A stretch of DNA of 64,000 nucleotides, taken from NCBI GenBank assembly GCA_035573675.1, contig DATMAB010000018.1, positions 1 to 64,000 on the forward strand. The letters run 5' to 3'. Below the pieces are notes generated by a model. The model saw only the letters and a program-made list of their open reading frames with translations, was not told the DNA's origin and made no database searches. Positions 351 to 46,867 of this stretch are shown piece after piece; position 1 is the stretch's first letter, and each line of letters starts with the position of its first letter. The translations under genes were made by a program, and so were the position numbers. This DNA comes from Terriglobales bacterium. Lineage in GTDB: Bacteria > Acidobacteriota > Terriglobia > Terriglobales > Acidobacteriaceae.

Positions 351-1532
351 ATGGCTGAAACACGACGCGTGGGTGTGGTGCTGTTCCAGCTGGGTGGGCC
401 GGACAGCCCGGAGGCGATTGAGCCGTTTCTGTTCAATCTCTTCTCGGATCCGGACATCATTGATTTTCCATTTGCCCGCCTGGGGCGGCGTCCGCTGGCC
501 AAGCTGATCTCCACTACCCGCGCCCGCAAGGTCTCCCACCACTACGCTGCCATCGGAGGCTGCTCGCCCATCCGCCGCAACACCGAGCGGCAGGCTTGCG
601 CTCTGGAAGCGGTTCTCAATGGCGAAGCGCCCGATTCTTTCGGAGGGGCACGAGTTTACTCGTGCCGACCGGGCCATTCCCATCACCCGGCTTTAGCGGC
701 TGAGGAACTGACTTTCAAGGTTGTAGTGGCCATGCGCTACTGGCATCCGTTCACGGCGGAGGCCATTGAGGAACTGGAGGCTTTCGGCTGCGACGAGATC
801 GTGCTCCTGCCGCTGTATCCGCAGTATTCCTCGACTACGACCGGCAGCAGTTTGAATGAGTGGGAGCGGCGGTGGAGTGAACGTTTCCCAGGGGCTAAAG
901 CCCTTTCTCAAAAGAGCCGCAACGGCGCGGCTCAAGCCGCGCCCTTTCAAAGCAATCAGGCAAGGAACGGCATTCCGGTGCATGTCGTCCGCGAGTTCTA
1001 CGCGTGCGGATCGTATCTGGACGCGGTGGCGGAAAAGATCGAAGCCACCCTGGCCCAGTTCCCTTCCCCGGAAGACGCGGAGATCGTGTTCAGCGCGCAC
1101 TCGGTTCCCATGAGCGTGATCGAGAAGGGCGACCCGTATCAGCGCCAGATAGAAGATACGGTCGAGCGGGTGATGGCGCTGGGCGGCTGGCGGAACCGTC
1201 ACCGGCTCTGCTACCAGAGCAAGGTGGGGGCCAGCCGGTGGCTGCAGCCCTCGCTGCGGGCCACGGTGCGGGAGCTGGCGGCGGCCGGCGTCGGGCAGGT
1301 GTGCGTGGTGCCGATCTCGTTCGTGAGCGACCACGTGGAAACGCTGGGCGAAATCGACCACGAGGCGCGCGAGCTGGCCGGGTCGCTGGGCATCCGCGAG
1401 TTCCGCATGACGCCGGGATTGAACGATTCCCCGCGCTTCATCGCCGCGCTGGCAGGACTGGTGAGGGAACAGATTCAAAATGAAAAATCAGAAATGCGAA
1501 ATGAAGAGACGAGGCTGGTGGCGGCAGACTGA
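351..1532 (+). CDS. hemH: Ferrochelatase with two in-frame repeat-derived insertions
   Basis: It inserts ferrous iron into a porphyrin, the last or near-last step of heme synthesis. The 393-aa product starts at the ATG at 351 (MAETRRVGVV), where family similarity begins. Visible landmarks are an IGGCSPI motif, MRYWHPFT, PLYPQYSSTTTGS, the AHSVP motif with the catalytic His near residue 250, and SDHVETLGEID with the conserved Glu near residue 330. Two segments, about residues 95-121 and 180-206, interrupt otherwise continuous family sequence and are encoded by GC-rich hairpin repeats like those in the spacers. Both keep the frame. The C-terminus is also a low-complexity tail (NEKSEMRNEE). The downstream bc complex and heme A/O synthases fit a heme/respiration neighbourhood. 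Confidence 0.93.
   Translation: MAETRRVGVVLFQLGGPDSPEAIEPFLFNLFSDPDIIDFPFARLGRRPLAKLISTTRARKVSHHYAAIGGCSPIRRNTERQACALEAVLNGEAPDSFGGARVYSCRPGHSHHPALAAEELTFKVVVAMRYWHPFTAEAIEELEAFGCDEIVLLPLYPQYSSTTTGSSLNEWERRWSERFPGAKALSQKSRNGAAQAAPFQSNQARNGIPVHVVREFYACGSYLDAVAEKIEATLAQFPSPEDAEIVFSAHSVPMSVIEKGDPYQRQIEDTVERVMALGGWRNRHRLCYQSKVGASRWLQPSLRATVRELAAAGVGQVCVVPISFVSDHVETLGEIDHEARELAGSLGIREFRMTPGLNDSPRFIAALAGLVREQIQNEKSEMRNEETRLVAAD
634..715. repeat. Hairpin repeat insertion inside hemH (first)
   Basis: It contains the perfect hairpin GGCACGAG-TTTA-CTCGTGCC (647-666), followed by a CCGGG/CCCGG pair. It encodes about 27 residues rich in G, S, H and A between NGEAPD and FKVVVAMRYWHPFT, where ferrochelatases normally have only a few residues. 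Boundaries are approximate. Confidence 0.7.
888..970. repeat. Hairpin repeat insertion inside hemH (second)
   Basis: It contains GGGCT-aa-AGCCC (892-903) and GGCGCGGCT-ca-AGCCGCGCC (924-943). The second hairpin is nearly the same as the intergenic hairpin at 46846-46867. It encodes about 27 residues (AKALSQKSRNGAAQAAPF and following) between the RRWSERFPG and PVHVVREFY segments. Confidence 0.7.
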
Positions 1533-4506: not shown

Positions 4507-4526
4507 CCCAGCACTTACGTGCTGGG
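4507..4526. repeat. Hairpin CCCAGCAC-ttac-GTGCTGGG
   Basis: A perfect 8-bp stem with a TTAC loop. It is flanked by two GTCCC/GGGAC hairpins at 4472-4484 and 4540-4552. Confidence 0.75.
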
Positions 4527-4662
4527 CTAACGAGTGGCCGTCCCTTCGGGACTGGGGCGGAGCCAGTGCCGGCGGCACGTCGTGCGCGACGGGCGAAGTC
4601 GGGGAGTCCTCCCACCCTGTCGCTCCAACATCGGGAGGACAAGGGTGGGTTGAGCCGAAAAC

Positions 4663-9277: not shown

Positions 9278-9278
9278 A

Positions 9279-9325
9279 CTCACGTCTTCGCCGAAAAGCG
9301 TGGCGTAGACGTGGGGCACGGTCGG
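9279..9325 (+). repeat. 45-bp palindromic element, copy 6 (tandem, compensated variant)
   Basis: CTCACGTCTTCGCC - gaaaagcgt - GGCGTAGACGTGGGG. A hairpin GGCACGACT-ga-AGTCGTGCC follows at about 9332-9351. The ctaA start codon is at 9364. Confidence 0.8.
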
Positions 9326-9363
9326 GCTGGCGGCACGACTGAAGTCGTGCCCTGATACGAAGC

Positions 9364-14882: not shown

Positions 14883-15195
14883 AGCGCAAGGTCCCTCGAC
14901 TCGCGCTCCCTTCCTTCCTCGTCCGCCACGGCGGACTCGGGAACGGTCGCGCTCGCTCGGGATCACAATCAGTAGGCGTTCGTAACGGCACGGCTGAAGC
15001 CGTGCCCCTACGAAGGATTCCGTTGCGTTCTGTTCGAGATCAGCAGCAGAAAATGCCCGGGCCGCGGGCGGCCGCGCCACGAAAATGAACCCCGAGGTCC
15101 TTCGCTCGGGTTTCCCGCGCTGGTGACGGCGCGCGGGTCCCTCCCTCGCTCAGGATGACGGCATCAAGACAGGGGGCCACGACAGAACCGGCTGC

Positions 15196-25375: not shown

Positions 25376-25587
25376 ACACGCGCTAGCGAGTTGATTGTAC
25401 GTTAGTTAAATCACTGATCGCCGCTGTTGTTCCCTCAGGGGGCTAAAGCCCGGATTCCTGGCCTCCGAAGGGCACGATCGCTGCGCGAGTCGGGCTCGCT
25501 ATGGATTTGAAAACCAATGCACAGGTCCTTCGCTTCGCTCAGGATGACAACCTGAAAACTATTCCCATGAAGTTGTGGGACGCGACC

Positions 25588-46845: not shown

Positions 46846-46867
46846 GGGCGCGGCTAAGGCCGCGCCC
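46846..46867. repeat. Hairpin GGGCGCGGC-taag-GCCGCGCCC
   Basis: A perfect 9-bp stem 24 bases after the ribBA stop. Its sequence is close to the hairpin inserted in hemH at 924-943. It could act as a bidirectional stop for the converging genes. Confidence 0.75.

Follow-up and report, generated by a model that had tools for sequence, protein, structure and literature searches.

Two in-frame insertions in an acidobacterial ferrochelatase gene are very probably solo copies of the terminal repeat of a TIRtron

How does a gene for a housekeeping enzyme come to carry two palindromic DNA segments within its coding sequence, what is their source, and how has the enzyme fared? These questions are raised by hemH, located at positions 351–1532 (+) of the 64,000-nucleotide stretch of DNA analyzed here (hereafter the window), which is the start of a contig (G000:C18:1-64000) in the 3.16-Mb, 28-contig genome of a Terriglobales bacterium. 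We refer to this source genome as G000, to a genome of the same genus as G001, and to other genomes of the family by other G numbers. The gene has 393 codons and a stop codon. Its product is identified as a ferrochelatase by family matches (PF00762, 349.7 bits; TIGR00109, 307 bits), by motifs and predicted fold, and by orthologs in relatives.

Two hairpin segments originally predicted to lie within hemH at 634–715 and 888–970 are real, and the repeat units that they contain are slightly narrower. Insertion 1 (638–705, −) is a two-hairpin repeat antisense to hemH with tail type CCCCTCCGAAA, and insertion 2 (886–952, +) is a two-hairpin repeat in sense orientation with tail type CCCTTTCAAAG. Compared with the ortholog in G001, the inserts correspond to gaps whose lengths, 78 and 84 nt, are divisible by three, and therefore add 26 and 28 residues, in agreement with the earlier estimate of ∼27 each. 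As was also claimed, the reading frame is open and the motifs YPQYS (156), SAHS (248), and DHVETL (327) are retained. The 180 nt between the copies (706–885, +) are native hemH sequence, which the alignments with G001 and with orthologs from relatives reveal to be conserved for the most part. At both insert sites the flanks have diverged from those of G001, and this obscures the exact target and any target duplication. The carboxy-terminal tail of the protein, QNEKSEMRNEE (1474–1511), looks like read-through of an AT-richer stretch, and the tail of the G001 protein is similar.

DNA searches of the source genome recovered five other matches to insert 1 and 24 other matches to insert 2 at E ≤ 1e-3. 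The hemH copies were included in our covariance model (R1), and their scores with this model are thus partly a matter of construction, so the DNA searches serve as the independent evidence for family membership. Several places in the source genome are matched by insert 1 on one strand and by insert 2 on the other (e.g., C10:74808-74881 and C26:190197-190264), which means that the inserts represent one family in opposite orientations. The repeat unit spans ∼68 nt and consists of CCTCAG, a stem–loop (GGGC/TAAA/GCCC), ∼22 nt of linking sequence, an 8-bp stem–loop, and a tail, for which the aligned copies exhibit three main kinds (CTTTCAAAG, CTGATACGA, and CCTCCGAAA). The alignment has 15 rows, comprising 13 of 14 selected copies (C17:107232 was left out) and the two hemH copies. 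In seven of these rows the first stem has C–G as its outer pair, and in another seven it has G–C. Four pairs of the second stem vary on both sides, in an alignment where 13 rows were chosen for a perfect second stem and pairing there is consequently partly built in.

With the covariance model, 115 places in the source genome were found at E ≤ 1 and at least 60 copies at E ≤ 1e-8. Copies occur in 33 of the 37 family genomes, the source genome included, and number from 0 to 112 per genome (99 in G032); these counts are minimum values, as scoring was limited to 138 candidates per genome. Six matches in the source genome (C24:7850, C17:107047, C15:151327, C27:128784, C26:27354, and C7:87432) start with CCTCGGGATGACAATTCA-like sequence in place of the first hairpin. 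In the three units displayed in full, the second hairpin and a CTTTCAAGA tail follow such a start, and matches of this type perhaps represent a composite repeat.

The original prediction placed spacer hairpins at 9332, 14993, and 46846 in the same class as the hemH segments. This kinship holds for the first two, found at 9278–9360 (+; 27.8 bits, E 2.6e-6) and 14955–15015 (+; 37.6 bits, E 2.8e-9), each composed mainly of the second hairpin and tail. The third (46847–46866, +; 17.4 bits, E 0.0037) resembles the second hairpin only and is a doubtful member. A further copy that had escaped notice (25433–25470, +; 24.1 bits, E 3.3e-5) has the first hairpin and tail without the second hairpin. The window also carries 10 copies of a different 45-nt hairpin repeat (CCCACGTCTGCGCC...GGCGCAGACATGGGGCACC) between 3318 and 24220, as well as an Acido-Lenti-1 RNA at 4507–4553 (+; 49.6 bits).

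To compare the insert sites among homologs, we aligned 83 hemH sequences: the query, the best 80 of 167 loci from a genome scan that may omit records very near the source genome, and the genes from G001 and G019. The hemH of the window is closest to sequences from records titled Korobacter, Acidobacteriales, Sulfotelmatobacter, and Terriglobia, which places it among the Acidobacteria. At site 1, all 82 other sequences have 12–13 amino acids where the G000 protein has 39, and insert 1 is absent from every one of them. At site 2, 81 of the 82 have 8–14 amino acids and nothing long, compared with 37 in G000 and 23 in G019. The same-genus G001 gene lacks both inserts. None of the 82 homologs carries the segments as conserved sequence, which is the pattern that the original prediction had named as contrary to its claim. 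Given a dispersed palindromic family and 82 other genes without its copies at either site, the proposal that repeats moved into hemH and were tolerated is borne out. Both inserts were gained after G000 and G001 split, or else were lost in G001, and their wider absence favors gain.

The exception at site 2 is an unrelated dispersed repeat (L003 1645-1715) located in the same loop as insert 2. This segment has eight further matches in G019 at E ≤ 0.1, five of them at E ≤ 1e-3, and zero matches in G000 or G001. Since it is repeated in G019 and absent from the other two genomes, unrelated repeats seem to have entered this loop in two lineages.

Judged by its sequence context, the repeat forms the ends of a ∼590-bp TIRtron (TIR-associated tyrosine transposase element). 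Inverted copies bracket a HuH/Y1 transposase gene in G033, G013, and G000, with an overall length of 584–590 bp. In the element of the source genome (G000:C15:337787-338371) the transposase frame is open, PF01797 matches above its cut-off (25.3 versus 23 bits at G000:C15:337939-338154), and the ORF encodes the HuH motif MPDHFH and a Y..NP motif. When the best transposase matches from 20 genomes were inspected, 19 had the inverted repeat on both sides within ∼170 nt. Repeat scores are weak (21–30 bits) on one or both sides in four of the loci (L317, L319, L320, and L327), and at L331 just one side carries a copy. The features that characterize a TIRtron, namely a HuH/Y1 gene, inverted repeats near both of its ends, and dispersed copies, are all present. 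Two other Y1 transposase genes on contig C7 (L081) were considered as the cognate source and rejected, as they look to be of a different type and have other hairpins around them. These two genes (L081 1400-3324) are near-identical and lie near hairpins such as CCCAGCACTTACGTGCTGGG, and between them is an internally deleted TIRtron copy.

The abundance of the repeat tracks the presence of this transposase. With a cognate transposase defined by a cut-off of our own choosing (E ≤ 1e-28), the median copy number is 28 in the 22 genomes that have one and 2 in the 15 that do not (p = 6e-4, uncorrected for kinship). Among the 30 genomes that are at least 90% complete, the medians are 39 (19 genomes) versus 6 (11 genomes; p = 0.005, likewise uncorrected). 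Two results count against the TIRtron as the source of the inserts. Three copy-rich genomes lack a cognate transposase at the chosen cut-off (G035 with 88 copies, G006 with 55, and G034 with 27), and no transposase element with a tail like that of insert 1 turned up in the source genome.

Repeat copies are also found within other genes. A third in-gene copy in the source genome lies in a gene for a lipase maturation factor (LMF1), between the PF06762 and PF25179 domains. The G001 ortholog retains the first hairpin but not the second, and therefore this insertion is older and has seemingly been trimmed in G001. In relatives, copies are located in kdsD (G002), the gyrA carboxy-terminal domain (G031), anmK (G004), thiL (G033), an aminotransferase gene (G013), and an ABC ATPase gene (G027). 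For all six, the best alignment to the sequence of a solved structure is broken or gapped where the copy lies. There are 38 residues versus 4 for kdsD, 146 versus 5 for gyrA, 69 versus 26 for thiL, 62 versus 13 for the aminotransferase, and 52 versus 18 for the ABC ATPase, with a gap of 21 residues for anmK. The G031 gyrA domain (L280 1735-3201, −) has five tandem LKGTG-type units (e.g., DALKGTGFSPSAT), the last of which is inside the repeat copy. The in-gene copies use both repeat orientations and several frames. A palindromic repeat in frame within a conserved gene, which is the trait of RPE-type elements, is thus observed in hemH and in seven other genes.

In the source genome, 73 copies were classified and 46 spanning ORFs obtained, 20 of which were scanned with Pfam (hemH was scanned separately). 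Six of the 20 had a family, and one subset yielded none in 10. Only three of 60 copies are shown to lie within genes even though coding sequence, crudely estimated, makes up ∼89% of the window, so most in-gene insertions were probably lost; the three are the cases shown and not a full count, as in-gene copies in ORFs that have no Pfam family could be missed. The survey of relatives covered 94 copies in 62 loci, or 86 copies once one duplicate locus and seven weak rows are removed. It gave 24 spanning ORFs, of which 10 were scanned (the antisense ORF of L251, ranked eighth, was skipped) and nine had a Pfam family. The six in-gene cases among 86 copies are not a rate, because the copies were taken from the best-scoring matches. 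Several candidates were set aside. In the dprA, cytochrome c, FAD oxidoreductase, and cation efflux ORFs of the source genome, the copy is upstream of the first Pfam domain and may be in a leader. A DNA glycosylase ORF (L124) possibly holds an in-gene copy and was left uncounted, as its match to 1pu6 stops at 191 with a −1.9-bit piece at 237. Among relatives, the copy precedes the first domain in dnaJ and luxR-type ORFs and follows the domain in an M14 peptidase ORF.

The simplest explanation for these observations, and one that we consider very likely, is that each hemH segment is a solo copy of the ∼68-nt repeat found at the ends of the TIRtron. The copies probably arrived in two separate events and are most likely tolerated as passengers. 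The data beneath this explanation are family membership, the empty sites, the inverted repeats around the transposase, the open frame, and the position of the inserts in loops of a predicted model (below). It is a point against this explanation that hemH begins 351 bases from the contig end and that the inserts are read from the assembly alone. Enzymes of the IS200/IS605 and RAYT groups are described as acting on single-stranded hairpins. By analogy, the TIRtron transposase might move or copy the terminal repeat alone to new sites, with single-stranded hairpins as its substrate. Most copies would then survive between genes, whereas a copy within a gene would survive if it adds a number of nucleotides divisible by three, if its frame is open, and if its position is in a surface loop, as may have happened twice in hemH. 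Two separate events are probable because the inserts belong to two tail subfamilies.

The two copies could instead have been made together, as an inverted (−,+) pair placed around the 180-nt hemH segment in the manner of TIRtron ends or REPINs. Template switching, or a transposition intermediate that captures hemH sequence, are examples of how this might occur. Such an origin would agree with the preponderance of (−,+) over (+,−) among inverted neighbors. Of 21 pairs of copies within 600 nt of each other in relatives, 10 are (−,+) and one is (+,−), and of nine neighboring pairs in the source genome, four are (−,+), including hemH, and one is (+,−). However, neighbors in the same orientation are frequent as well (10 of the 21 and four of the nine), the sequence between the hemH copies is ordinary hemH, and their 3′ tails differ, whereas other inverted pairs, in a hand-picked set, mostly have the same tail type. 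We therefore regard a single event as unlikely.

The consequence for the enzyme bears on another possibility, which is that hemH is decaying. The source genome encodes a second ferrochelatase (TIGR00109, 193 bits), whose gene is flanked by hemE and a gene for protoporphyrinogen oxidase; if this second enzyme does the work, the insertions might mark relaxed selection. The limited distribution of the window's hemH would be in keeping with this notion: among 36 other family genomes, 12 have a close ortholog, 23 have distant matches only, and one, which is 76% complete, has none. The sequence beside the inserts (25 codons) is also divergent. Against decay stand the open frame, the intact motifs, and a dN/dS value for the hemH core relative to G001 (0.109) that is like those of the neighboring Rieske (0.122) and cytochrome b (0.109) genes, although this value averages both branches and so cannot demonstrate constraint after the insertions. 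An obvious pseudogene is excluded by these same features, and decay of the gene is improbable. Given the second ferrochelatase gene and a close ortholog in only 12 of 36 genomes, however, the description of hemH as an essential gene in the original prediction cannot be retained.

A structure model, which had been suggested as a check, was generated with AlphaFold2 from 42 sequences. Its mean pLDDT is 88.3, with core values mostly above 90, and the fold most similar to it is that of human ferrochelatase (4f4d; TM 0.78/0.85). Confidence is low in the inserts, with pLDDT below 50 at residues 103–113 and 189–194. Insert 1 is between a helix (74–89) and a strand (120–129) and has no predicted secondary structure, and insert 2 is between a helix (164–178) and a strand (208–212), with short low-confidence helical turns at 180–185 and 187–189. 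The model thus predicts that both inserts are low-confidence loops of an intact fold, a prediction that informs on structure and not on enzyme activity.

These predicted loops, and the hairpins that encode them, might have been recruited for a function such as translational regulation by mRNA hairpins or a new binding loop of ferrochelatase. It is true that the second-hairpin stems are fully paired in both copies, and that two separate inserts in one gene are unusual. Nevertheless, recruitment seems very unlikely to us, since the inserts are present in none of the relatives aligned, they have no stable predicted structure, and the LMF1 copy common to G000 and G001 is partly eroded in G001. The inserts are most likely passengers without function. 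Finally, native lineage-specific loops that are GC-rich and palindromic by chance might be envisaged from the in-frame lengths and the variable site-2 loop, but this reading is ruled out for practical purposes by the dispersed matches of both segments in G000 and relatives and by 82 other hemH genes without either one.

If solo copies of a TIRtron terminal repeat do account for the hemH segments, then the repeat may be well suited to survival within genes because it is partly coding itself. The transposase frame continues into the downstream repeat at every one of the 19 loci where such a repeat is present. The stop codon is inside the repeat in 13 loci, beyond it in six (including L319, where only a partial repeat match is present), and before it in none. 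The downstream repeat is in frame 0 of the transposase in 13 of the 19, and PQ.LKP is encoded in most. Moreover, 35 of 60 copies in the source genome have no stop codon anywhere in the transposase-like forward frame, compared with 7 to 27 copies for the five other frames. This pattern fits a repeat that doubles as coding sequence. Frame entry into the repeat a few bases past the conserved part of the transposase could also occur without selection.

A bolder version of this idea is that the terminal repeat is mobile DNA shaped to be coding. Selection would keep the frame readable because the repeat encodes the carboxy-terminal end of its own transposase, and copies would consequently survive well in genes and act as a continuing source of new loops. 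Copies would add a peptide of the form PQ.LKP ... G.AEA.P to housekeeping enzymes across the family, or else peptides read in other frames or from the opposite strand, and the unit could later expand in tandem, as in the G031 gyrA. The two hemH inserts would then be one instance of an ongoing supply of loops. We offer this proposal only tentatively, as more doubtful than not. Even so, the way in which the transposase frame extends into the repeat points to a testable reason for repeat survival within genes, and cases in the family that have insert-free relatives would permit loop growth to be traced stepwise. The hemH gene of a soil acidobacterium, together with the enzymes of its relatives, illustrates how selfish repeats can lengthen proteins.

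Several known systems resemble the one described here. TIRtrons have been reported previously, and a survey (PMC3733652) includes three TIRYT genes in Koribacter and an Acidobacteria transposase group. As described there for Koribacter versatilis ORF1552, a Y1/HuH transposase gene lies between inverted repeats, some of which are double palindromic and have copies elsewhere, as in our genomes. A class 3 of TnpA_Y1 from Acidobacteria and Planctomycetes, with atypical structures and many copies, comes from the same phylum (PMC6006769). Its signature (NHVH, YV..EQ) is not found in three transposases from our genomes, which have DHFH or DHVH with YIHLNP, YIEQNP, or YVHQNP. Like REPINs and BIMEs with their RAYTs, the present repeats form inverted palindrome pairs tied to a single-domain HuH transposase. 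In contrast to those systems, full-length solo copies are common here, and the inverted pair closely brackets the transposase gene as in an insertion sequence.

Palindromic repeats in frame within genes are likewise known. In the survey, GTAG and CGTC repeats occur in frame in many genes, some of which are hit twice, and most intragenic palindromic inserts encode 20 to 30 residues (PMC3733652). In-frame REPs are also described inside subclass 2.4 tnpA genes (PMC6006769). The GTAG REPs within genes, for example those of O. terrae, resemble our repeats in being in frame, in entering some genes twice, and in their link to a tyrosine transposase (PMC3733652). They differ in having a GTAG-type foot and one hairpin per unit, whereas here two different hairpins are joined by ∼22 nt. 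A GT[AG]G foot is absent from our aligned copies, whose consensus begins with CCTCAG and ends with CTTTCAAA, CTGATACGA, or CCTCCGAAA.

Within the literature searched, parts of which were available only as excerpts, we found no report of TIRtron repeats inside Acidobacteria genes and no paper on a ferrochelatase with palindromic insertions. So far as these sources extend, in-frame palindromic repeats and TIRtrons in Acidobacteria were known already, and TIRtron repeats inside Acidobacteria genes are new. The in-gene copies in the survey text at hand are of GTAG and CGTC repeats rather than TIRs (PMC3733652), whereas here copies of a TIR are in genes. With empty sites in a genus mate, hemH provides a clean case in which mobile palindromes have been incorporated into the gene for an enzyme. 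The similarity to Rickettsia RPEs noted in the original prediction holds as a way of working, in that short palindromic repeats are carried in frame by protein genes; the RPEs, which we set beside our repeats by description, are analogs. According to the survey, the CGTC repeats, including counterparts of the R. conorii RPE-4 and RPE-6, have no associated transposase genes (PMC3733652), whereas for the repeats in hemH the probable mobilizing enzyme, the transposase of the TIRtron, can be named.
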